Assembly (NCBI RefSeq): GCF_004168205.1
Contig: NZ_RCYB01000070.1
Coordinates: 1 to 10,753 of the forward strand
Source of the DNA: Catenibacterium sp. co_0103
GTDB taxonomy: Bacteria > Bacillota_I > Bacilli_A > Erysipelotrichales > Coprobacillaceae
DNA length: 10,753 bases
Direction: 5' to 3'
The position numbers and the translations under genes are program-made. The stretch's first letter is position 1, and each line of letters begins with the position of its first letter. This document shows, piece by piece, positions 1 through 10,753 of this stretch. The notes beneath the pieces are model-generated. The model made no database searches. It saw only the letters and a program-made list of their open reading frames with translations, and was not told where the DNA came from.

Positions 1-9
1 TCTTCCCAT
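1..9 (-). CDS. Start of an unidentified gene running off the left edge
   Basis: An ATG at 9-7 (minus strand) is preceded by AGGAGG (23-18) with an 8-nt spacer, which is a strong ribosome site, but only three codons (Met-Gly-Arg) lie inside the window. It follows the NIF3-like gene by 79 nt on the same strand, so it may be the next gene of the PTS operon; no product can be inferred. The AGGAGG is also the descending arm of a hairpin followed by a T-rich run, so the ribosome site could be accidental and the ATG not a real start. Confidence 0.4.
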
Positions 10-12
10 AAG

Positions 13-67
13 AAAAACCTCCTCAGCAAACAGTGCTTTTAATTATTTACACTGTCTACTGGGAGGT
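13..67 (-). terminator. Long hairpin with T-run overlapping the ribosome site of the edge gene
   Basis: On the minus strand, 67-49 pairs with 36-17 to give about 19 base pairs with one bulged base (23) and an A/U-only loop (48-37). The closing helix is ACCTCC against GGAGGT, and the hairpin is followed by TTTT-C-TT. Three non-Watson-Crick positions (27/58, 29/56, 36/49) are G-U in minus-strand RNA but C-A in plus-strand RNA, so the fold fits the minus transcript. It begins 22 nt after the NIF3 stop and reads as an intrinsic terminator for that operon. It also buries the AGGAGG of the next start codon, so it could act as a translational switch. Confidence 0.7.
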
Positions 68-88
68 CATCATATCATTAAGAGATGC

Positions 89-874
89 TTATTTTTCTAT
101 ATGATAAATACCATATTTGTTAGGAACATAAGTAAATGACACTTCTTGAAGTTGTTCATTGAGATACTTAGCAAGACATTCAATTCCTGGTGCTTCACAA
201 GTCATATGGTTAATAACAATGAGAGGTAAGTCATTATCCATCGCCCATTGAACTGCAGTCCAGTTATTGATACCATCGTCACTTACTAAGCAGGCATCAA
301 CTCCATGTTCAGACATTTGAAAAACATCTGTGCATGCTCCAGTACCTATTCCTAATCTATTTATTTTTTTATTCTTATCACCAATCACTTCAATGCCATA
401 CTGATAATAAGGCTTGATTTGCTTTATGATATGGTGTGCTAATTCTTCGACTGTCATATTTACATCATTCGCAAATCTTAAGAATGAATAATCATGCGAC
501 TCTTCGAATTTTAAATCTAATACTTTTGCCCAGCAATCTCTTACACCATATTCTGGATATAAATCCCATAAATCATGACATCTATATAACGTAATATCAT
601 GTTTTTTTAATAAGGCTTCTTTTTCTTTCTGTGCTTTATAAACAGCTGTAGGAAGTGATGTTGATGCCATATAGAATGCATTTTCATGTGTAATAATAAA
701 ATGCACATCATGTTCTATTGCATACTGAATAATTTCTTTAGTAGCAACCCAGCAAACAACTACTTTATTCACGTCTTTTTGATCATCACCAAATAGAATA
801 CGGTCTCTTGTACAACTTCTATTGACCCACTCACCGTGTGATTCTAATAAATCTAAAATTTGTCTAACTCTCAT
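89..874 (-). CDS. NIF3/DUF34-family dinuclear-metal protein, copy 1
   Basis: The product is 261 residues and belongs to the NIF3-like (YbgI/YqfO-type) family, which usually forms toroidal hexamers with a two-metal site; the substrate is unsettled. The family pattern is visible: a His pair region at 62-65 (THEN), CHDLWD at 99-104, GIGTGAC at 175-181 and INHMTCEAPG at 221-230. These give likely metal ligands H63, D104, H223 and E227. The usual HHP motif is changed to HEN, so E64 replaces the second histidine. The start at 874 is chosen over an in-frame ATG at 940 because AAAGGAGG (886-879) lies just upstream, and this length matches copy 2 exactly. It follows the PTS permease gene by 37 nt and is probably co-transcribed. 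Family confidence is high; its role in sugar metabolism is inferred from context only. Confidence 0.85.
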   Translation of the reverse strand: MRVRQILDLLESHGEWVNRSCTRDRILFGDDQKDVNKVVVCWVATKEIIQYAIEHDVHFIITHENAFYMASTSLPTAVYKAQKEKEALLKKHDITLYRCHDLWDLYPEYGVRDCWAKVLDLKFEESHDYSFLRFANDVNMTVEELAHHIIKQIKPYYQYGIEVIGDKNKKINRLGIGTGACTDVFQMSEHGVDACLVSDDGINNWTAVQWAMDNDLPLIVINHMTCEAPGIECLAKYLNEQLQEVSFTYVPNKYGIYHIEK

Positions 875-886
875 ATGTCCTCCTTT

Positions 887-920
887 AAAAAACCTGGAGA
901 ATAGGATAACCCTATTCTCC
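887..920 (-). terminator. Intercistronic hairpin plus T6 between EIIC and NIF3 copy 1
   Basis: A perfect 10-bp inverted repeat (GGAGAATAGG at 896-905, CCTATTCTCC at 911-920) with a 5-nt loop is followed on the minus strand by AGG and then six Ts (892-887). The stem contains the EIIC stop codon, and the T-run touches the ribosome site of the NIF3 gene. It is probably a partial terminator or an RNA-stabilising/processing hairpin that lowers NIF3 expression relative to EIIC. The 3-nt gap before the T-run makes strong termination less certain. Confidence 0.6.
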
Positions 921-2243
921 CTGTTCAGATAATTTCTCATCTTCTAAATCCATCTGTTTATCATAAGATTTCATAAATGGAATGAAGACAATAATGTTGA
1001 TTGCAAATAAGACAAACCAAATAATAATAGCACGATAATCCATAGTTGAAAGGAATGCATATAGAGGTGCAGGTAAAGTCCAAGGAACACTCATACATGT
1101 CTTACTCATAAGACCTGCAGCTGTTGATAAATATGCAACAACTAAATTAATAGCAACACAAATCATACTTGGAATGAATGTTAGAATATTTAATACTGTT
1201 GGAACACCAAATACTAATGGTTCATTGATGTTAAATACTGATGATGGAATTGCTAAACGTCCTAGTGAACGTAATCTCTTATTCTTACATACAAAGTTCA
1301 AGTTAAATAGAATTGCAAGATAAGCAATAGCTAATCCAAAGATAAATGTAAAGTTACCTGCAATAATGTTTGGAATTTCTTTGTTTGCATTATATGCAGC
1401 TAAGTTAGCAACTAAGTTACCAGTGAAAATTGGTGTAGTAATAGCACTTACCATGTTATCACCATGAATACCGAAGAACCAGAATACTACTGTTAATAAT
1501 ACAATAAATAACATAGATGGTAGTGATGCAGTCGCTGAGATAAGTGGTGAGAAAACAGTAAATACAAGATTTGTAAGACCTGATCCTAATGTTGCAATAC
1601 ATACCTGATCTAAGAAGATAAAGAATAAAATATCAACAACCATTGGCAATAAGACTTCGAATGGCCCAGCAACCATAGGTGGCACACCGGCTGGCATTTT
1701 GATTTTGATATTTTTCTCAATCATGAAGTGGTTAATTTCAATTACAACAAGTGCAACGATAATAGCTGCAAACATAGAACCAGAACCAAGACCACTTAAA
1801 TTGATATAACTACCATCTTTAATAGTCTGTGGAACTGCTGCAATACATAAGAAAGTAAATAATGCTGTAATCGCATTTGGGAAAGCTTCCATTTCATAAT
1901 GCTGTGCTAAACGATATGATACACCAAGCACTACATATACAGAGATGATTCCAATTGTTAAGTTAAATGGAATTGTAAGAATTGAAGACCACTGAGTAGC
2001 CCATGTCTTCCATGCGATTAAAAAACTAAAGAAGAAATTAGTAGGTTTCATAACCTCTAAATCAACTGGTGGGTTCGCAATCATAAGTGAAATACCACCA
2101 ATAACTGTAAGTGGAATTAAAATTGTAAGACCATCTCTTAATGCGGCAAGATGTCTTTGTGAAGCAATCTTTGTTGCTACTGGTACAACTTTTTCTTCCA
2201 TCACTTTTTGAAACTTGTCAAAAAAAGCTTTTAATTTTTCCAT
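912..2243 (-). CDS. PTS lactose/cellobiose-family EIIC permease (CelB/LicC-like)
   Basis: This 443-residue integral membrane protein is the sugar-translocating EIIC subunit of a phosphoenolpyruvate-dependent phosphotransferase system; it would pass the sugar to be phosphorylated by a separate EIIB. Family signatures are KMPAGVPP (182-189), FGIHGDN (257-263), FNINEPLVFG (337-346) and VPWTLPAPLYAFL (386-398). About ten hydrophobic segments run from residue 35 to 425, and the charged N-terminal helix is typical. The start at 2243 is preferred to an in-frame GTG at 2264, because AAAGGA lies 8 nt before this ATG and inside the longer reading. No EIIA or EIIB gene lies in the window, so partners must come from elsewhere or from beyond the left edge. 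The sugar is likely a beta-glucoside or disaccharide but cannot be read from sequence. Expression probably starts at the promoter at 2286-2314. Confidence 0.93.
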   Translation of the reverse strand: MEKLKAFFDKFQKVMEEKVVPVATKIASQRHLAALRDGLTILIPLTVIGGISLMIANPPVDLEVMKPTNFFFSFLIAWKTWATQWSSILTIPFNLTIGIISVYVVLGVSYRLAQHYEMEAFPNAITALFTFLCIAAVPQTIKDGSYINLSGLGSGSMFAAIIVALVVIEINHFMIEKNIKIKMPAGVPPMVAGPFEVLLPMVVDILFFIFLDQVCIATLGSGLTNLVFTVFSPLISATASLPSMLFIVLLTVVFWFFGIHGDNMVSAITTPIFTGNLVANLAAYNANKEIPNIIAGNFTFIFGLAIAYLAILFNLNFVCKNKRLRSLGRLAIPSSVFNINEPLVFGVPTVLNILTFIPSMICVAINLVVAYLSTAAGLMSKTCMSVPWTLPAPLYAFLSTMDYRAIIIWFVLFAINIIVFIPFMKSYDKQMDLEDEKLSEQGE

Positions 2244-2265
2244 AAACAATGTCCTTTCTATCACT

Positions 2266-2279
2266 TGTAAGAGTTTACA
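2266..2279 (-). promoter_or_regulatory. cre-like site at the PTS transcription start
   Basis: The minus strand reads TGTAAACTCTTACA, with TGTAA and TTACA arms around 4 nt. It matches the CcpA operator pattern TGWAARCGYTWNCA except that the central CG is CT. It sits on or just after the predicted +1 of the PTS promoter, where CcpA binding would block transcription. Catabolite repression of a PTS permease is expected biology; the site itself is a prediction. Confidence 0.45.
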
Positions 2280-2285
2280 TATATG

Positions 2286-2314
2286 ATTATATTCTTGTTG
2301 TGAAATAGTGTCAA
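2286..2314 (-). promoter_or_regulatory. Perfect-consensus sigma-A promoter of the PTS-NIF3 operon
   Basis: TTGACA (2314-2309) and TATAAT (2291-2286) are separated by exactly 17 nt on the minus strand. Transcription should begin near 2279, giving a leader of about 36 nt before the EIIC start. Such a strong core promoter usually needs a repressor, and a cre-like site lies directly downstream. Confidence 0.85.
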
Positions 2315-2333
2315 TATATTTTGATGATAAATG

Positions 2334-2382
2334 GGAATTTTCTCATTAATTGGGCTTAATAAACTAAATTCCACGCTTAATA
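2334..2382. repeat. Operator-like repeats upstream of the PTS promoter
   Basis: Two direct copies of GCTTAATA (2354-2361 and 2375-2382) are spaced 21 bp start to start, two helical turns. They overlap an inverted pair GGAATTT (2334-2340) / AAATTCC (2366-2372). The block lies 20-70 bp upstream of the PTS -35 box and about 100 bp upstream of the plus-strand -10. It is a candidate binding site for one of the RpiR regulators; the pairing is unproven. Confidence 0.35.
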
Positions 2383-2454
2383 TCATTATTTTATTATATT
2401 GATACTTTTTCTCATTATTTCATTGAATCATTTATTGTGATTTCTCAAAATCAT

Positions 2455-2483
2455 AGCACATAAAAAATCTTTTTAAATATAAT
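2455..2483 (+). promoter_or_regulatory. Probable promoter for the alkyl-sulfatase-like gene
   Basis: TATAAT at 2478-2483 is a perfect -10 box. The -35 at the proper 17-nt distance (AGCACA, 2455-2460) is weak, sharing only the final ACA with consensus, so an activator may be needed. Transcription from about 2490 would give a leader of roughly 105 nt that includes the hairpin at 2546-2589. Confidence 0.5.
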
Positions 2484-2545
2484 CTACCTTCAGCAAACTA
2501 ACGAATGAAATCATGAGCCTCTAATACTTACCTCAAAGTGCCTAC

Positions 2546-2589
2546 TACCCTCCTATCTAATTCTCTAGTAGAATACATATAGGAGGGTA
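2546..2589 (+). promoter_or_regulatory. Leader hairpin masking the ribosome site of the sulfatase-like gene
   Basis: TACCCTCCTAT (2546-2556) is perfectly complementary to ATAGGAGGGTA (2579-2589), which contains the AGGAGG of the downstream gene 9 nt before its ATG. Within the loop, ATTCT (2560-2564) pairs with AGAAT (2570-2574), making a nested two-helix hairpin. CTACTA (2542-2547) can pair instead with TAGTAG (2566-2571), which would open both helices, so two exclusive folds exist. No T-run follows, so it is not a terminator. It could control translation (ligand, temperature or protein) or be a DNA operator. Confidence 0.6.
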
Positions 2590-2595
2590 TTTAAC

Positions 2596-3822
2596 ATGAG
2601 TGAACAACTATTAATCAAACATACACAAGAAACATTTAAAAAACATTTCTATGAAATCAATGATCACATTCTATTCTTCTATTCCTATGGTCATAGTAAT
2701 GCAACTGCTATTATAGGTAATAGTTCTGTTATCTTAATAGATACTCTAGACTCTAATGAATATTCACAAGACTTATTGAATGACTTAAGAAAGTATACAG
2801 ATAAACCAGTGAAAACATTAATCTATACTCATGGTCATCCAGACCATAGAGGTGGTGCAGGTACTTTTAGAGATACTGTAGAAGAAATCATAGCTTTTAC
2901 ACCATTTAAAACACCTTTAAAGTATTATGAAAAGATTGATGAAGGATTAAGAAAAAGAGGAACATATCAACATGGATATACTCTTACAAATGAAGAAGCA
3001 ATATGCCAAGGTATTGGTATAAGAGAAGGTAAGGTTACTGGTCATGGATGCTATGATTTTATCTCTCCTACTACTTTATATACTGAAGATAAAGTCATAA
3101 GAGATATTGATGGTATACATCTAGAGTTATATAGAGCACCAGGAGAAACTGATGATCAAATCTGTATCTGGATCAATGATGATCAGGTTCTCTGTACGGG
3201 TGATAACTATTATGCTGTTTTTCCAGCATTATATGCTATTAGAGGTACACAATACAGAGACCTTGCTACATGGATTGATTCTTTAGACCTTATTCTTTCT
3301 TTTGATGCAAAAGTTCTATTACCAGGGCATATACATCCTTTATTAAACAAAGAATTAATCCAGAACCAAGTAGGTCAGTTTAAAGAAGCTATCGAATATA
3401 TTCTCTTTAATACCCTAGACTGTATTAATAAAGGTCTTACTCTAGATGAAACAGTACAAACTGTTTCATTACCAGAAGAACTTAAGAACTCACCTTACCT
3501 GCAGGAATATTATGGAACTGTAGAATGGGCTGTTAAAAGTGTTTATACAGGCTATGTAGGATGGTTTGATGGTGATCCTATCCATTTATTACCTGTCAGC
3601 AATCAAGAATATAATAGTGTATTATTAGATCTTATTGGTGAAGAAAAACTATTAGAGAAGATTAAAGACTGTATGTCTCATTCACAATATCAAATAGCCT
3701 TACAATTATTAGAACTCATAGACAATAAAGAACTAAAAAAAGAATGTCTACTACAACGTGCAAAACAAGTAAGAAGTGCGAATGCGAGACATTATCTAAT
3801 TGCAGCTAGTAAAGAGTATTAA
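2596..3822 (+). CDS. Alkyl-sulfatase-type metallo-beta-lactamase-fold hydrolase, short form
   Basis: This 408-residue protein resembles the SdsA1/BDS1 type III alkyl sulfatases, which cleave alkyl sulfate esters with two zinc ions. The metal motif THGHPDH gives H79, H81, D83 and H84; further likely ligands are E184 (APGET), D203 (CTGDNYY) and H245 (LPGHIHP). AIRGTQYRDLATWIDSLDL (214-232) and VGWFDGDPIHL (321-331) are characteristic of the sulfatase and its dimerisation helix domain. Family members usually exceed 600 residues and end in an SCP2-like lipid-binding domain. That domain is absent here, and the tail ends soon after the helical domain. There is no signal peptide, so it is probably cytoplasmic. 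The gene stands alone, divergent from the PTS operon, with a long structured leader. The true substrate may not be an alkyl sulfate. Confidence 0.82.
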   Translation: MSEQLLIKHTQETFKKHFYEINDHILFFYSYGHSNATAIIGNSSVILIDTLDSNEYSQDLLNDLRKYTDKPVKTLIYTHGHPDHRGGAGTFRDTVEEIIAFTPFKTPLKYYEKIDEGLRKRGTYQHGYTLTNEEAICQGIGIREGKVTGHGCYDFISPTTLYTEDKVIRDIDGIHLELYRAPGETDDQICIWINDDQVLCTGDNYYAVFPALYAIRGTQYRDLATWIDSLDLILSFDAKVLLPGHIHPLLNKELIQNQVGQFKEAIEYILFNTLDCINKGLTLDETVQTVSLPEELKNSPYLQEYYGTVEWAVKSVYTGYVGWFDGDPIHLLPVSNQEYNSVLLDLIGEEKLLEKIKDCMSHSQYQIALQLLELIDNKELKKECLLQRAKQVRSANARHYLIAASKEY

Positions 3823-3848
3823 AAAGCAGGTCCCCTCGGACCTGCTTT
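3823..3848. terminator. Shared bidirectional terminator between convergent genes
   Basis: AAAGCAGGTCC (3823-3833) and GGACCTGCTTT (3838-3848) form a perfect 11-bp stem with a 4-nt loop. On the minus strand it ends in five Ts (3825-3821) and starts 8 nt after the esterase stop, making a good terminator. On the plus strand it directly follows the sulfatase-like stop but has only TTT, so it is weaker there. Confidence 0.88.
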
Positions 3849-3856
3849 AGTGCGTA

Positions 3857-5476
3857 TTAAGCTCTTTTTCTTCTAATAAGAATGATTCCAAAAGCGGCTA
3901 CTACAAACATTGCGATATATGCTGCAAATGTAGTTGTATCACCAGTCTTTACTGGATCCTTCTTAGTAGTAGTTTCAGTTTTGTTTGTTGTATCTGTTTT
4001 GTTTGTTGTGTCTGTCTTATCTGTTTTATCTGTTGATGGTTTGTTTTCTGGAGTAGTAGGCTTTTCAGGTTCTACTGGAGTAGCATCTTTCATATATGTA
4101 GCTGCCCAATTCCAGATATGAGTACCTGATGCATCAGATGGGTTATTTCTTAAAGTATAAATCCAAGACCAATGGTCACTGTATTTAACTGTTTCTTTCA
4201 CACCATCTAAATTATAATCTTCTTCAAATTTAAGTTTACCACAAGGTCTAGTTTCACCTAATGAGTCAACTTTATCTTCTAAATCTACTGTATCATATAA
4301 TGATAATTTATATTTACCATCTTTAGTTTCACTAGTAGTGAAGCTTGAATTGAATTCCTGTTCTACTCGAGTAGTAGTTAATTCAGCACCATCAGTTAAG
4401 ATTTTAAAGATTCTCTGTGAACATACTTCTGACTTAACGCTAGAGTCTGTCTTACCCTGTACTAACCAGATAGCTGTCTTAGAATTCTTAAGGCTAGCTA
4501 ATTCTTCATCAGTAGGAGTTTCTCCACCTCTAATTGCAGCTGTATCTAATGCTGGACAGTTGATCATAGCTGCAGAGAATAAATCAGGATATGCAATCAA
4601 CATTCTAGTAGTCATATAACCACCAGCTGAACATCCACTTACTACAACCTTATTAGGGTTAATATTGTATTTCTTAATAACTTCTTCGATTTCTGTTTTA
4701 GCTTTTTCTAATAAATTATCTCTTTGAGCATAGTACCAAGTAGCTGGTGCTTGGAAACTCATTACATGAGCACCACCAAAGATGTTCTGAGCTTCATCAG
4801 TAGCCCAAGCAACAGTACCTCTATTTGCAAGCATCTGAGCAACGTTATTCTGAGTATTATAACCTTCTAAGTCCCCTTCACCATTACCATGGAACCAAAC
4901 AACTAACTTATCAGCACCTTTTGCTTCATGGAACTGATAGTTGATTCCCTGAGAGCCTTTAACTGAAGTGAACTTTGCTGTTTCTTCATCAATAACAGTA
5001 TTATCACAAGTGATTTCTCCAGTGATATCTTCTAAGTCTCTACCATCTACTGAAGTTGCTTTTAAAGCTTCATTCTGAGCAATAGTATAATTAATCTTAC
5101 CTGGATAGTTTCTACTTTCAGATAACCAAGTTAAAGTAGCACCTTCTGATTCATTCATATAAAGTGTTACCTTACCACCTGCAACTTCTACCTTTTCAAT
5201 AGTACGATCAGCATCACTATAAACTTTCCCGTTATTTGAACCAATCTGTACATAGTTAGTTGCATGAACTGTATAAGTATCTTTATCAGCGCCAGATACT
5301 TTTACACCATCACCGTAGTCAATTACAACTTTATTGACTACCTGCCCAGCATCTGTGACTTTACCATATAACTGAGCTACATAATTACCTGCTGCCTGAA
5401 CAGGAACTACAAACACCATTGCAACCATCATTGCAACACTTACAACAACTGAAAATACATGTTTCATCTGTTTCAT
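3857..5476 (-). CDS. Secreted, sortase-anchored alpha/beta-hydrolase (esterase/peptidase, COG4099-like)
   Basis: The 539-residue product starts with a signal peptide (1 to about 28, ending VPVQA). A beta-rich N-terminal region (30-180) precedes an alpha/beta-hydrolase core with HGNGEG at 196-201 (oxyanion side), the nucleophile elbow GCSAGG with S283, a likely acid D344 (GKTDSSV) and a His at 435 (SDHWSW) or 453 (GTHIW). This suits PHB-depolymerase/feruloyl-esterase-like or predicted-peptidase families. A Pro/Thr/Lys/Asp linker (467-506) leads to PVKTGD (508-513), a hydrophobic helix and RRKRA, a variant sortase signal lacking the Leu of LPXTG. The start at 5476 is chosen because AGGAGG lies 8 nt before it but only 2 nt before the ATG at 5482. 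It likely acts on dietary or host polymers at the cell wall. The substrate is unknown. Confidence 0.85.
   Translation of the reverse strand: MKQMKHVFSVVVSVAMMVAMVFVVPVQAAGNYVAQLYGKVTDAGQVVNKVVIDYGDGVKVSGADKDTYTVHATNYVQIGSNNGKVYSDADRTIEKVEVAGGKVTLYMNESEGATLTWLSESRNYPGKINYTIAQNEALKATSVDGRDLEDITGEITCDNTVIDEETAKFTSVKGSQGINYQFHEAKGADKLVVWFHGNGEGDLEGYNTQNNVAQMLANRGTVAWATDEAQNIFGGAHVMSFQAPATWYYAQRDNLLEKAKTEIEEVIKKYNINPNKVVVSGCSAGGYMTTRMLIAYPDLFSAAMINCPALDTAAIRGGETPTDEELASLKNSKTAIWLVQGKTDSSVKSEVCSQRIFKILTDGAELTTTRVEQEFNSSFTTSETKDGKYKLSLYDTVDLEDKVDSLGETRPCGKLKFEEDYNLDGVKETVKYSDHWSWIYTLRNNPSDASGTHIWNWAATYMKDATPVEPEKPTTPENKPSTDKTDKTDTTNKTDTTNKTETTTKKDPVKTGDTTTFAAYIAMFVVAAFGIILIRRKRA
3976..4011. repeat. 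18-bp tandem repeat in the esterase linker
   Basis: Two adjacent 18-bp units (3976-3993 and 3994-4011) match at 16 positions and encode a T/N/K/D-rich hexapeptide repeat of the wall-spanning linker. It is likely to vary in copy number between strains through slippage. Confidence 0.7.
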
Positions 5477-5502
5477 GTCCATTTCCTCCTGTAATTAATA
5501 TA

Positions 5503-5541
5503 TCAGAAAGAGCATATGAAATCGATTGCATAAAACGTTTT
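5503..5541 (-). promoter_or_regulatory. Possible esterase promoter with a cre-like core upstream
   Basis: The minus strand carries an extended -10, TGATATATT, about 20 bp upstream of the ribosome site; no good -35 is visible. Further upstream, AAAACGTTTT (5532-5541) is a perfect palindrome with the CG core of a CcpA site, though the outer TG/CA bases are missing. No convincing terminator for the upstream regulator gene is seen in the 121-nt gap, so read-through is possible. Confidence 0.35.
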
Positions 5542-5597
5542 TAGTTTTTATTTTATAACCATTATTTTTTTAAAACAGAAAGGGTTCATAAATAGAA

Positions 5598-6293
5598 CTA
5601 CATTTGTATATTATCTAAGATTCCATATATATTTTCAAAAATCATACAGAGATGATGTATTCTATCTGCTATACATCTCTCATCAATTTCTATATAGTTT
5701 TCATTTAATTCCTTCTTCTTTGCGACTTTCCCTATGTAGATATGTTCTATATTTCTTTGTTCCAATGATTCCATTAAAGTAATATATTCATCAAGATATC
5801 CTAATTCAAATCCTAGATTAGAATGAAAAAGAGAGACAAAGAATACAATATCATCCGATGTCACATTAAGCTGTATCAGCTGTTTCATAGGAAGAGATTG
5901 ATACAGCTGAAAATCTATAGGTATTTTTGTATCTCGGAAAATCTGCTTATAGACAAGTAATGGTGCAAGAGAACTCTCATCTCCTAAAACAACGATTCTT
6001 TTCTTATCTTTAATCTTATCCCAAAGTGACTCATCATACTGGCAGGAACGATAAAGTGGTCTCGTAGACAACTCATAATACAGCTGATATTGAACAGCAG
6101 TAAAATTCTTATAGCCCAAATCAATAGAATAACGTCTCAATGTTGATTTAGAAATATCTAAGTCTTTTAATATATCATTTACTTTATATTCAATAATAGA
6201 ATGACGATTTTCTAATAGATAATGTGTAATACGATAAGTATGGCTTTCTCTATCCGATATACTATCTAACATATTCAACTGTTCTAATATCAT
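5598..6293 (-). CDS. MurR/RpiR-family regulator, second of a tandem pair
   Basis: The 231-residue protein has an N-terminal RpiR-type helix-turn-helix (about 36-64, ILKDLDISKSTLRRYSIDLG) and a divergent SIS-like sugar-binding fold. The SIS part is recognised by RIVVLGDES (99-107) and DDIVFFVSL (147-155), with no clear phosphosugar-binding Ser/Thr motif. RpiR regulators normally dimerise and respond to sugar phosphates; this one is shorter than the usual 280 or so residues. Its ATG overlaps the stop of the preceding regulator (ATGA, 6293-6290), which implies translational coupling and perhaps a heteromeric complex. Targets are probably the PTS operon and/or the esterase gene just downstream. 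Family assignment is fair; the ligand is unknown. Confidence 0.75.
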   Translation of the reverse strand: MILEQLNMLDSISDRESHTYRITHYLLENRHSIIEYKVNDILKDLDISKSTLRRYSIDLGYKNFTAVQYQLYYELSTRPLYRSCQYDESLWDKIKDKKRIVVLGDESSLAPLLVYKQIFRDTKIPIDFQLYQSLPMKQLIQLNVTSDDIVFFVSLFHSNLGFELGYLDEYITLMESLEQRNIEHIYIGKVAKKKELNENYIEIDERCIADRIHHLCMIFENIYGILDNIQM

Positions 6294-7039
6294 AAGTAAT
6301 TCTCCGCATAATAGTATGTAATTTCTTGTATATAATAATCCAGGATCATATTCTCTAATACTTCATCTAAGCCTTGAGGAATTGTAAGACCATAAGCATC
6401 CTGCAAATAATCATAATGTCCTATAGTAATCATCTTTGGATTATTCTCTTTCATTTTATTAAGTAACCAAGGATTTAAGTCTACAATTCTTCCTTCCATA
6501 CTTAATAATATGACACAATCATCTTTCTCAGGAGTAAAGAAGTTTGTTTTATATATACTATCTTTTACAACAAGCTTCCCCATTACATAGAAATCTATCT
6601 GCATTCTAGAAAAGTAACTAGCCATCTCATCAGAACCTATAAGTATTACTCTTTTACTATTATAAATCATCTCACATACTTCTTTAATCCATGACATATC
6701 TATGAGTCTTTCATAATCTTCTGATTTAAGAATACTAGAAAATACCTTATGAAGCATCTCATAATCTTTATCATTGATTCTATTTTGTATCTGTACATAG
6801 CGAATACGCATATGACTAGAAAATAATGCTTTAAAGATCATATACTTCTTATAGCCATAAATACGAAAGAATCGATTTAAGCTAGAAGTAGAAACAAAAC
6901 ATCTTTCTGCGAGTTCATTAATAGTTAAATAATCTAATTCATGTCCATTCTCTAATAGTCCTAAGGCAATCTGATAGTTGATATCACGTACTTCTGGATT
7001 ATTAATAAACATGAATAAGGCATTAAAAAAACAATTCAT
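6290..7039 (-). CDS. MurR/RpiR-family regulator, first of a tandem pair
   Basis: The 249-residue product has a clear RpiR helix-turn-helix (about 39-66, INELAERCFVSTSSLNRFFR followed by YGY) and a C-terminal SIS-like domain. RVILIGSDEMA (130-140) and DDCVILLSMEGRI (173-185) occupy the positions of the SIS phosphosugar motifs, but the usual SxSG pattern has become SMEG, so ligand binding may differ. The gene starts at an ATG preceded by GGGGAGGG (7052-7045). The start codon and first codons lie in one arm of a 13-bp inverted repeat, suggesting autoregulation. It overlaps the second regulator by 4 nt and lies 77 nt after NIF3 copy 2. It is likely to control sugar-uptake genes of this region. 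Confidence 0.8.
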   Translation of the reverse strand: MNCFFNALFMFINNPEVRDINYQIALGLLENGHELDYLTINELAERCFVSTSSLNRFFRIYGYKKYMIFKALFSSHMRIRYVQIQNRINDKDYEMLHKVFSSILKSEDYERLIDMSWIKEVCEMIYNSKRVILIGSDEMASYFSRMQIDFYVMGKLVVKDSIYKTNFFTPEKDDCVILLSMEGRIVDLNPWLLNKMKENNPKMITIGHYDYLQDAYGLTIPQGLDEVLENMILDYYIQEITYYYAENYL

Positions 7040-7080
7040 CGTATCCCTCCCCTACAGTTATCATATCATGAATTGTTTTT
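7027..7080 (-). promoter_or_regulatory. 13-bp inverted repeat around the regulator promoter and start codon
   Basis: AAAAACAATTCAT (7027-7039) and ATGAATTGTTTTT (7068-7080) are perfect inverted copies with arm centres 41 bp apart, about four helical turns. On the minus strand an extended -10 (TGATATGAT, 7068-7060) and the ribosome site lie between them, and the proximal arm contains the start codon. If the promoter is real the transcript begins near 7053, so the repeat is a DNA operator. In read-through RNA from the NIF3 gene, it would form a hairpin ending in seven Us, hiding the start codon or terminating. Confidence 0.6.
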
Positions 7081-7116
7081 ATACTTCATTTTTTTCAAAT
7101 TCGTGCTTAAAAATGC

Positions 7117-7902
7117 TTATACATCCATATGATATATACCATAATCATTGGATACAAAGGTAAAAGTCACTTCTGGAAACTGTTTAGATAAATACTCTAC
7201 CATATGTTCCATACCTGGTGCTTCACATGTCATATGATTAATCACTATAAGTGGAATATCATGATCTACTGCCCACTGGACACCTATCCAGTTACTCACA
7301 CCATCATCACTGACTAAACATGCATCTGCACCTTCTTCATACATTTCAAATACATCTGTACAAGCACCTGTACCTATGCCTAATCTATGTATTATTTGCG
7401 TCTTATCTCCTATCATTTCTATACCTTGCTGGTGGTAAGGTTTTATTCTATTAATAATATGCTGTGCACATTCTTCTACTGTCATATTGATATCATGAGT
7501 ATATCTATAGTAAGAATGATCATGTGATTCTTCAAAATCTAGATCTAATGTGTTAGCCCAGCTATCTCTAATGCCATATTCGGGATAGACATCCCATAAA
7601 TCATGACATCTATAAATAGTAATATTATTTTCCTTTAATAATGCTTCTTTTTCTTTTTGTGCTTTATATATAAGTGTAGGTAACGATGTAGATGCGAGAT
7701 AGAAGGGATTCTCATGTGAAATAATAAAATGTATATCATGTTCTATTGCATATTGAATCACTTTATTAGTCGCAACCCAACAAGTAATGACTTTACTTAT
7801 TTCTGTTTGATCATCCCCAAACAATATACGATCTCTTGTACAGCTTCTATTCACCCATTCAGCTTGTGACTCTAATAAGTCTATGATGTCTCTTATTGTC
7901 AT
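7117..7902 (-). CDS. NIF3/DUF34-family dinuclear-metal protein, copy 2
   Basis: This 261-residue paralogue aligns without gaps to the copy at 89-874, about 70% identical by eye count. The same ligand pattern is present: SHEN at 62-65 (H63, E64), CHDLWD (99-104) and INHMTCEAPG (H223, E227). The HHP-to-HEN change is therefore shared and looks like a subfamily trait. The start at 7902 has AAAGGAG 9 nt upstream and gives the same length as copy 1. It sits between the RecJ-like gene and the regulator pair, whereas copy 1 follows the PTS permease. Enzymatic function is not established for this subfamily; a metal-dependent role tied to the carbohydrate locus is inference. Confidence 0.85.
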   Translation of the reverse strand: MTIRDIIDLLESQAEWVNRSCTRDRILFGDDQTEISKVITCWVATNKVIQYAIEHDIHFIISHENPFYLASTSLPTLIYKAQKEKEALLKENNITIYRCHDLWDVYPEYGIRDSWANTLDLDFEESHDHSYYRYTHDINMTVEECAQHIINRIKPYHQQGIEMIGDKTQIIHRLGIGTGACTDVFEMYEEGADACLVSDDGVSNWIGVQWAVDHDIPLIVINHMTCEAPGMEHMVEYLSKQFPEVTFTFVSNDYGIYHMDV

Positions 7903-7924
7903 ATATGTTCACTCCTTTCTTATA

Positions 7925-7955
7925 ATTATACACAAAAAAAGACATTCTTAATCAA
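7925..7955 (-). promoter_or_regulatory. Probable promoter of NIF3 copy 2, inside the upstream terminator
   Basis: TATAAT (7930-7925) is a perfect -10; TTGATT (7955-7950), in the loop and arm of the upstream terminator, could serve as a -35 but with a long 19-nt spacer. Transcription would start near 7918, giving a very short leader before the AAAGGAG site. Confidence 0.45.
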
Positions 7956-7962
7956 GAATGTC
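7934..7962 (-). terminator. Intrinsic terminator overlapping the end of the RecJ-like gene
   Basis: GACATTCTT (7941-7949) and AAGAATGTC (7954-7962) form a perfect 9-bp stem with a 4-nt loop, followed on the minus strand by seven Ts (7940-7934). The stem encodes the last residues of the protein, and the stop codon is at the loop junction. Confidence 0.88.
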
Positions 7963-9174
7963 CACTTGTACTGCGTTAATTGTCATAAGGCTAGTAAAGT
8001 CATTAATAGATAATGTACCTACAATCTTTACTTTCTGACCTTGTTTAAACTGCTTAATTTTATAGTTTGGATTATAGATGATTGTATCAATACCACCTAC
8101 ATTAGGAATAAAGAAACTTAACTTGATATGATCAAAATAATCTTTTACAGGTGCTTCATGAATGACTAAACCTTCAATAGAGATAGGAGTCTTTTCCTGT
8201 CCATTTCCAAATGGTGATAATACCTGTAAGTATTCTTCTATATTTGTCTTAGATAAGTCTGAAATTTCTAATGGAATCACATCTCTTACTCGATCATCAT
8301 CATGGAATTCATCACTAATAAAGTATCCTGCATTAATTTCATCCGCAATAGGTGCAACAGAACGGAACTTACCTGTACCAGGACAACCATAAATAAGGTA
8401 CTTAACCATCTTCTTCGCATTATTTAAAGAACTAAGATAATGTGCCATCTTATTTGTGATAGAACCAGACATAACACTTTCATTATATGTCTTCTTGAAT
8501 TCTCTTTGACGCATATTGTTTTTCTGTCTTGTCTTAGGCGTTAAAGCAACAAACTCAATCGCATCAAAACGACAATCATTTAATAAACCTAAAGTCTTCT
8601 TTAAATGATAACGGTTAGAGTTACGTAGAGGAACTTCTTCAGCCTGAATACCAATACCTGCAAGAGAAGCTAAATACTGATTTTCTTTACCAAGTAATGT
8701 ATTAATAAGCTGTAATACAAGTAAACTCTGTGCAACATCTTCATCCTTATAGTGACCACCAGGTACTAATGGATATACATTGTCACCATCTCTTACTTCT
8801 AACTGATTGCCTAAGATAATATGAAGACCAGGCCCAAAATCATCTTGAGGACCATCAAAAAATTCAAAAGCTGATTTCCCTTTAGCCATTAAGACACCCA
8901 GGAAAATCATTGCACTTTCTAATAAATGATGTAGTTCTGTACTCATGATACAAATATGAATCTTAGACTTAGAAGCACATGCTTCTTTAATGAGATTCAA
9001 TGCTGTTTCACCATTCTCTAAATCTGTAAAGTTATAATAGAATGGTGTGTTGAGTGCTTCATAGTCTTCTTTTGTGAAGCCTCTATGTTCTACATATTTC
9101 GCAATAATAGGATTCACTTCATATGAATCCATAATTTCTTTAGTATGAGATAATTCAACTTCGTGAAATATCAT
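7948..9174 (-). CDS. RecJ-like DHH-superfamily protein lacking catalytic motifs
   Basis: The 408-residue product follows the RecJ plan. The N-terminus has NPIIAKYVEHRGFTKEDYEA (21-40). ASLAGIGIQAEEVPLRNSNR (169-188) corresponds to RecJ ALGTIADVVPL..NR. GTGKFRSVAP (266-275) resembles the DHHA1 GSGRS loop, LSPFGNGQEKTP (319-330) matches RecJ PFG.GN..P, and an OB-like C-terminal domain spans about 345-406. The active-site motifs are gone: DYDVDG is replaced near MSTELHH (77-83), the DHH position reads GNQ (122-124), and the segment carrying motif II and the GGH..AAG core are absent. It should therefore not be a nuclease, and may bind DNA or a partner as Cdc45 does. The start at 9174 has GGGGAG 8 nt upstream, unlike an ATG at 9201. 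It is monocistronic, divergent from the MATE gene. Confidence 0.68.
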   Translation of the reverse strand: MIFHEVELSHTKEIMDSYEVNPIIAKYVEHRGFTKEDYEALNTPFYYNFTDLENGETALNLIKEACASKSKIHICIMSTELHHLLESAMIFLGVLMAKGKSAFEFFDGPQDDFGPGLHIILGNQLEVRDGDNVYPLVPGGHYKDEDVAQSLLVLQLINTLLGKENQYLASLAGIGIQAEEVPLRNSNRYHLKKTLGLLNDCRFDAIEFVALTPKTRQKNNMRQREFKKTYNESVMSGSITNKMAHYLSSLNNAKKMVKYLIYGCPGTGKFRSVAPIADEINAGYFISDEFHDDDRVRDVIPLEISDLSKTNIEEYLQVLSPFGNGQEKTPISIEGLVIHEAPVKDYFDHIKLSFFIPNVGGIDTIIYNPNYKIKQFKQGQKVKIVGTLSINDFTSLMTINAVQVDILD

Positions 9175-9200
9175 TTTTTCACTCCCCTCTTTCCAAAACA

Positions 9201-9206
9201 ATTATA
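9201..9206 (-). promoter_or_regulatory. -10 box for the RecJ-like gene
   Basis: TATAAT (9206-9201) lies 26 nt before the ATG on the minus strand. At -35 only a T-run is found (the A9 tract at 9221-9229 on the plus strand), so the promoter is incomplete by consensus. Confidence 0.4.
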
Positions 9207-9224
9207 ACGAATGGTTCTCTAAAA

Positions 9225-9253
9225 AAAAAGTGTTACTTTCATTTACACTTTTT
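9225..9253. repeat. 9-bp inverted repeat between divergent genes, operator candidate
   Basis: AAAAAGTGT (9225-9233) and ACACTTTTT (9245-9253) are perfect inverted copies with an 11-bp spacer, centres 20 bp apart, in the 139-bp gap between the RecJ-like and MATE genes. It covers the -35 zone of the minus gene and lies just before TTGAAA (9252-9257), a possible -35 for the plus gene whose -10 is poor. A shared regulator site is plausible. Confidence 0.4.
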
Positions 9254-9313
9254 GAAACTTCTCAACGACTTTCTTTTTATTGTGTTAGACTATAGTCATG
9301 AGGAGGGGATTCC

Positions 9314-10657
9314 ATGAAGAAAGATCAATATCAAATGGACATGACGCACGGTCCATTACTTGGTAAGATCTTAATATTTTCTATACCATTAATGTTTTCA
9401 GGGGTGCTGCAGTTATTATTTAATGCAGCAGATGTTATTGTGGTAGGACAGTTTGCTGGTCCACGTTCTATTGCGGCAGTAGGTTCTACATCTTCTGTTG
9501 TCAATCTATTAGTGAGTTTATTTATTGGTTTATCTGTCGGGGTCAATGTACTTGTCGCACGTTTTATTGCCTCACAAAGAGACAAAGATACCCATGAAAC
9601 AGTACACTCTGCCATACTACTCGCAATTGTCTTTGGCTTGGTCTTTGCGATTATTGGTGTGACATGCGCAAGAATAATTCTAGAGGCGATGGGATCACCT
9701 GATGATGTCATCAATCTTGCAACAACCTATTTACGTATCTATTTTGTAAGTATGCCCTTTGTTGCACTTTATAACTTTGGTGCTGCCATATTACGTGCCA
9801 TTGGTGATACAAAAAGACCACTTATATTCCTTATTATAGCGGGTGTTGTGAATGTCATATTAAACTTAATATTCGTTATTATATTCAAGATGGATGTAGC
9901 TGGTGTCGCACTTGCGACATTTACGGCTGAACTTGTTTCGTCAATTCTTATTATTAACTGCTTGATGAAAACAAGTACTGTCATTCATTTAGATATTCAT
10001 GCTTTAAAGTTTCATAAAGATAAAGTGATTCAGATATTCAAGATTGGTTTACCTGCGGGATTACAGGGTGCTATCTTCTCTATTTCTAATATTCTGATTC
10101 AGTCATCTATTAACTCATTTGGTTCTATTGCGATGGCAGGCAATGCCGCAGCAGGATCACTTGAAGGATTTGTTTATCAGTCTATGAATGCCATCTATCA
10201 GGCGTGTGTCACTTTCACAAGTCAGAACTATGGTATTAATGATAGAAAGAGAGTCGATAGAGTCCTTGCATTATGTATTGGAATAGTCACAGTTGTAGGA
10301 CTTGTTTTAGGTAATCTTGTCTACTTCTTTGCGGATGAACTCATTCGTATCTATACAACAGATGTACAAGCTATTGCCTATGGACATGAAAGATTATTGT
10401 ATATATGTGTCCCTTATTTCATCTGTGGCTGGATGGATGTCATAGTTGGTTCATTAAGAGGTTTAGGCTATTCTACTATTCCTATGATTGTATCTTTAAT
10501 AGGTGCATGTGGACTAAGAGTCTTATGGATTCTTACTATCTTCCAATATTTCCATACACTTAATTCTATTTATTTATCATATCCAGTAACATGGGTTGTT
10601 ACTGCAGCAGCACATCTTATTACTTATATGATACTAAGAAAAAAAGCTTTTAACTAA
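9314..10657 (+). CDS. MATE-family multidrug/sodium antiporter
   Basis: The 447-residue membrane protein has the MATE family opening, THGPLLGKILIFSIPLMFSG, then LLFNAADVIVVGQFAG (about 33-48), followed by twelve hydrophobic segments in two six-helix halves. LRAIGDTKRP (near 164) closes the first half and LRGLGYSTIP has the same place in the second, as usual for NorM/DinF/MepA-like exporters. These pumps use sodium or proton gradients to expel cationic compounds. The ATG at 9314 follows AGGAGGGG with a 5-nt gap. It is full length, divergent from the RecJ-like gene, and no other gene is seen in its transcript before the right-edge terminator. The exported compound is unknown. Confidence 0.93.
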   Translation: MKKDQYQMDMTHGPLLGKILIFSIPLMFSGVLQLLFNAADVIVVGQFAGPRSIAAVGSTSSVVNLLVSLFIGLSVGVNVLVARFIASQRDKDTHETVHSAILLAIVFGLVFAIIGVTCARIILEAMGSPDDVINLATTYLRIYFVSMPFVALYNFGAAILRAIGDTKRPLIFLIIAGVVNVILNLIFVIIFKMDVAGVALATFTAELVSSILIINCLMKTSTVIHLDIHALKFHKDKVIQIFKIGLPAGLQGAIFSISNILIQSSINSFGSIAMAGNAAAGSLEGFVYQSMNAIYQACVTFTSQNYGINDRKRVDRVLALCIGIVTVVGLVLGNLVYFFADELIRIYTTDVQAIAYGHERLLYICVPYFICGWMDVIVGSLRGLGYSTIPMIVSLIGACGLRVLWILTIFQYFHTLNSIYLSYPVTWVVTAAAHLITYMILRKKAFN

Positions 10658-10682
10658 AAAAAGCCATTCAGAAATTTAAAAT

Positions 10683-10745
10683 GGTACCCATAAGGAGGAC
10701 AACAACCTGACAGTTGTGATACCCACCTTGTGGGTATCTTTTTTT
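10683..10745 (+). terminator. Strong terminator with an alternative 13-bp pairing (attenuator-like)
   Basis: GATACCCAC (10718-10726) and GTGGGTATC (10730-10738) form a perfect 9-bp stem with a 3-nt loop followed by seven Ts (10739-10745), a clear intrinsic terminator 60 nt after the MATE stop. Upstream, GGTACCCATAAGG (10683-10695) can pair with 10726-10738 over 13 bp, including two wobble pairs, which would destroy the terminator. ACAAC and GTTGT (10713-10717) make a small hairpin inside that fold. It may be the end of the MATE transcript or the leader of a gene beyond the edge. Confidence 0.85.
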
Positions 10746-10753
10746 CATTTCGT

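Follow-up and report, generated by a model that had tools for sequence, protein, structure and literature searches.

In the nuclease RecJ of Deinococcus, as far as the available part of the source describes it, the metals are held by D79, D81, D83, D135, H159 and D223, H160 and H397 act in catalysis, and the OB fold touches single-stranded DNA (ssDNA) (PMC4846377). Inactive relatives of RecJ have also been described, and according to the available parts of these papers the archaeal ones were inactivated independently and are thought to be structural parts of replication (PMC3307487), Sulfolobus RecJdbh, homologous to the ssDNA-binding domain of RecJ, binds GINS (PMC3104950, PMC3307487), and Cdc45, a subunit of the eukaryotic CMG helicase, is an inactive RecJ derivative that keeps DHHA1 (PMC4873980). 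Here we analyse a stretch of 10,753 nucleotides of Catenibacterium sp. co_0103 (contig NZ_RCYB01000070.1, positions 1 to 10,753), referred to below as the window, in which the reverse strand of positions 7948-9174, stop codon included, carries a gene for a RecJ-derived protein of 408 amino acids (aa), which we call short RecJ. Among the titles and abstract openings searched, no title dealt with a nuclease-dead bacterial RecJ paralogue.

Short RecJ is best read, at a probability of roughly 55%, as a RecJ-derived pseudonuclease that is kept as a non-catalytic, ssDNA-binding accessory docking a partner in replication or repair. That it is a pseudonuclease is well supported by sequence, trees and predicted structure, and it probably serves as an ssDNA-binding accessory or scaffold. 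The first-pass annotation had proposed a catalytically dead RecJ paralogue that is maintained rather than decaying, and this agrees with the homology, the fold, the full-length RecJ that accompanies it in all six carrier genomes, the intact frames in four genera and ratios of non-synonymous to synonymous substitution (dN/dS) well below 1.

The reading frame is open throughout (408 codons, ATG at 9174), as had been noted, and the starts of the orthologues line up with this ATG in the alignment of the short proteins. In a profile-profile comparison seven short proteins were colinear with 26 full-length RecJs over their whole length (probability 99.85, E 7.5e-31). Pfam recognises the OB domain of RecJ (RecJ_OB, PF17768) at residues 301-396 of the window protein (7987-8274, reverse strand; E 3.6e-9, 37.1 bits against a cut-off of 27), and the same family is above its cut-off in the orthologues of Kandleria, Sharpea porci and genome G025. 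DHH and DHHA1 gave no Pfam match in the window protein at E <= 1, and the NCBIfam model recJ (TIGR00644) covers only residues 301-402, with 32.6 bits against a cut-off of 396.9. Short RecJ_OB matches below the cut-off in genomes G011, G017 and G019 belong to large subunits of exonuclease VII and were excluded from the counts. A shift of short RecJ towards RNA or translation, with its OB fold binding tRNA or rRNA, is clearly unlikely: OB folds are generally alike, RecJ_OB is the one family that the window protein matches above the cut-off, and in other genera the methyltransferase does not lie beside the gene.

Structure models of the window and Kandleria proteins, built from 13 and 8 sequences with a mean predicted local distance difference test (pLDDT) of 69.9 and 78.8 respectively, both have bacterial RecJs as their best fold matches, ahead of archaeal RecJ and Cdc45. 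By model comparison the RecJ fold is present with a DHH-like core, linker helices and an OB domain; core and linker extend to residue 289 in the window model and to 277 in the Kandleria model, and the OB part begins at 295 and 283, respectively. Alignment and fold comparison place the junction left by the missing DHHA1 domain at residues 281-295 (8290-8334, reverse strand). In the Kandleria protein a single stretch of 98 RecJ residues, including the GGH motif, is without counterpart, and for the window protein the alignment shows this loss as several separate gaps, each 17 to 33 residues long. Of the RecJ landmarks proposed in the first-pass annotation, VPLR..NR and SPFGNGQ have aligned counterparts in RecJ and the OB-like tail is the domain recognised by Pfam, whereas GTGKFRS cannot stand for DHHA1 as it sits in the linker and differs in other genera. 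The P-loop-like GCPGTGKF, with weak matches to DAP3 and RFC, was considered as a Walker A motif and rejected, because it lacks the S/T and is not conserved in other genera. The short proteins also have in common a segment that does not align to RecJ (residues 205-230; 8485-8562, reverse strand), which is modelled with low confidence (pLDDT below 50 at residues 201-228 of the window model).

None of the eight catalytic residues of Deinococcus RecJ is retained in the window protein, in an alignment that is approximate in gapped stretches. The position of motif I (DYDxDG) is taken by STELH (residues 78-82; 8929-8943, reverse strand), so that D79, D81 and D83 are replaced by S, E and H; D135 falls in a gap, H159 and H160 are Q and L, D223 is E and H397 is D, while D158 of the DHH triplet is N. 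Two of the replacements are thus the acidic residue E, one of them at the motif IV aspartate within residues 179-188 (8611-8640, reverse strand), where the retained start of the PL..NR helix follows. H159, H160, D81, D223 and H397 are gone from all seven short copies. By comparison, the 26 RecJs of the family included in the tree keep all eight residues, motif I being kept by choice as these rows were selected with the pattern GDYD.DG, and the other five positions not. The loss of the motifs, GGH among them, is as the earlier reading had it, and judged by its residues the window protein should have no activity as a RecJ nuclease.

The short proteins form one clade (support 100/99) within the RecJs of the host family, in a tree of 33 rows and 374 columns in which their branches are long, and for which the tree tool warned of false joins; the Sharpea rows are three residues short, and two of 28 RecJs were left out, that of G037 (motif I GDFDCDG, outside the pattern) and that of G013 (RecJ in pieces). 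The subclade that holds them comprises genera g1, g9, g16, g18 and g20 (88/92 in the joint tree). Rebuilt trees that contained just one set of short proteins, the two from the window lineage or the remaining five, placed that set independently in this same subclade (94/97 and 94/96), and for this reason one old duplication at its base appears likely from the sequences. Sequence, trees and predicted structure together show that recJ was duplicated in an ancestor of this part of the family and that one copy shed its catalytic motifs along with DHHA1. The DHH-like core, linker helices and OB fold of this copy stayed in place, and it has its own segment at about residues 205-230. Genome G020 (g20) lies inside the subclade and has no short copy, which suggests that it was lost there.

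Whole-length matches to short RecJ were found in 6 of the 43 genomes of the host family, in 4 of its 20 genera; Kandleria vitulina, Sharpea porci and Sharpea azabuensis are the carriers known by name. A sample of the class gave 5 carriers in 395 genomes among the matches listed, all of the host family, the sixth (G025) lying outside the matches listed. In a sample of the phylum RecJ_OB was found in 125 of 392 genomes at E <= 1e-6, and the frames shorter than 480 aa were six, namely five short RecJs and a frame of 123 aa in G356. No relative of the window protein was found among viral contigs, phages and plasmids, with this one protein as query and with a viral-contig search that reaches close relatives only. 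A full-length RecJ was found in each of the six carrier genomes, and a separate recJ may be inferred for the window organism from genome G001, which has a short protein 91% identical to that of the window. This co-occurrence, in which short RecJ is present only where full-length RecJ is, and its derivation from the very subclade of that RecJ, would also suit a regulator that competes with full-length RecJ for SSB-coated DNA or for RecJ partners and so limits 5'-end resection. We consider such a role unlikely: RecJ occurs family-wide and mostly without a short copy (RecJ_OB in 39 of the 40 host-family genomes searched), and a long distance separates the two genes. To our knowledge RecJ does not need a partner copy, which also counts against a regulator.

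Comparison by the Nei-Gojobori method shows that short RecJ is under purifying selection. For the two Sharpea species dN/dS was 0.034 (dS 0.48), and for the g16 pair 0.10, where the RecJs of the two genomes gave 0.16, with dS of 2.3 and 1.8, near saturation. Between the window and G001 the value was 0.22, and eight neighbouring genes ranged from 0.04 to 0.29, the highest belonging to an MBL gene with a dS of only 0.007. Cross-genus pairs gave 0.40 and 0.61 at a dS of about 1.5 and carry little weight, dS being near or past saturation between genera. The frames are free of stops in all six carrier genomes, and exactly 408 aa were counted in 145 of the 148 homologous proteins among the matches listed (the best 120 of 232 and the best 120 of 257), where close matches rank first and only similar lengths are admitted. 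A decaying relic of the duplicated recJ, already disfavoured on these grounds, is the least probable reading of all, although evolution between genera is fast (24-25% identity between the window and Kandleria proteins), residues 231-299 are looser in the window lineage (dN/dS 0.38) and the copy is absent from G020. As a separate observation, the short RecJ gene differs far more between the window and G001 (91% protein identity, dS 0.26) than the neighbouring genes (96-99.6% protein identity, dS 0.007-0.21). Most of this divergence is found in the C-terminal half, a pattern that hints at an exchange of alleles.

By analogy with RecJ, the OB fold of short RecJ would bind ssDNA and its dead core would provide the surface on which a partner from replication or repair docks, with full-length RecJ presumably doing the cutting. 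An aromatic residue is found at one OB position in all short copies (Y in 7 of 7) and in all RecJs (F or Y in 26 of 26), and our guess is that it corresponds to W517 of Deinococcus RecJ. Several observations weigh against the reading of short RecJ as an ssDNA-binding accessory. The arginine R109, which contacts the 5'-phosphate, is lost in all seven copies, as is S371 (in the window lineage both copies have an R aligned with R373), and because of both losses short RecJ should not grip 5' ends as RecJ does; the residues of the helical gateway are mostly lost in the short copies as well. The short proteins (isoelectric point 5.3-6.5, n=7) and their OB parts are acidic, as are the 26 RecJs (5.0-6.6). 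The neighbours of the gene differ between genera, so that no conserved neighbour suggests a partner, and SSB, RecO and RecQ do not follow its distribution across the 43 host-family genomes; SSB is present in 42 of these and RecO likewise in 42 (41 above the cut-off). The gene is moreover missing from 37 of the 43 genomes, hence short RecJ is not a core replication part in the host family. Against the loss of nuclease activity, in turn, aspartates aligned with D79, D83 and D135 are retained in the Kandleria and both g16 copies, and the two Sharpea copies retain D83, with Glu in place of D135; these copies may therefore still have partial metal sites. An enzyme with an altered metal site is nevertheless very improbable, as five of the eight catalytic positions are lost throughout, the window copy keeps none of the aspartates, and in the available part of the source alanine substitution of metal ligands inactivated Deinococcus RecJ (PMC4846377).

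With respect to the flanking sequence, a terminator-like hairpin overlaps the stop codon (7963-7940, reverse strand) and is one of five hairpins found in 7000-9400, against 0.5 expected. Upstream, a TATAAT that could be a -10 box (9201-9206, reverse strand) and a purine-rich stretch resembling a ribosome-binding site were read by eye; a sigma-70 -35/-10 pair did not turn up there in a consensus scan. The terminator claimed earlier thus stands as a terminator-like hairpin, and an own promoter is only plausible. No Rfam family reached its gathering score anywhere in the window. The neighbouring genes encode a MATE transporter (opposite strand), a DUF34/NIF3 protein, two RpiR-like regulators, a second NIF3 protein, an esterase-like protein with an LPXTG-type end, an MBL-fold protein with an alkyl-sulfatase dimerisation domain and a PTS IIC protein. 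The two DUF34/NIF3 paralogues within this 11-kb window (89-940 and 7117-7902) score far under the NCBIfam cut-off for the standard Nif3-like protein. The RpiR-like regulators are adjacent with a 4-base overlap (5598-7039); Pfam HTH_6 is slightly below its cut-off in both and an SIS domain is weakly seen in one. In G001 an SSB paralogue of 105 aa (L041, 4215-4532) is encoded some 4 kb away from the short RecJ gene, and none is found beside the gene in other genera. In both g16 genomes (L042, 10570-11835; L044, 10159-11466) a protein of 421-435 aa adjoins the gene, with a GGDEF protein beside it; it has no Pfam match and looks TPR-like by eye. In the host family (f1) RecQ (TIGR01389) was matched in 1 of 43 genomes at E <= 1e-30, below the family cut-off.

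Compared with bacterial RecJ, from which it derives in the host family itself, short RecJ has the same order of core, linker helices and OB domain, but lacks the catalytic residues and DHHA1 and has about 400 rather than about 540 aa. The proposed parallel to Cdc45 can be kept as an analogy, in so far as both would be RecJ derivatives with an inactive DHH domain that were retained. It does not extend to the architecture, because Cdc45 keeps DHHA1, as the available text states (PMC4873980), whereas short RecJ apparently drops it and keeps the OB fold, nor to the fold matches, which are best with bacterial RecJs. The archaeal inactive RecJs, Sulfolobus RecJdbh included, were compared by description only, from the available parts of the papers; they are likewise non-nuclease relatives of RecJ, but archaeal and separately derived. 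For the partner of RecJdbh, we know of no GINS in bacteria.

In archaea and in eukaryotes, RecJs that had been inactivated have become core components of replication. It is a tentative idea, with the odds against it, that a bacterial lineage has likewise turned a duplicated RecJ into a non-catalytic subunit of the replication fork or of recombination, dropping DHHA1 and keeping the OB fold. For annotation, a RecJ_OB match alone does not make an exonuclease. Moreover, a bacterial case confined to one lineage, whose genomes still carry the active parent and whose relatives include genera that have no copy, would make the first steps of such a change directly testable.
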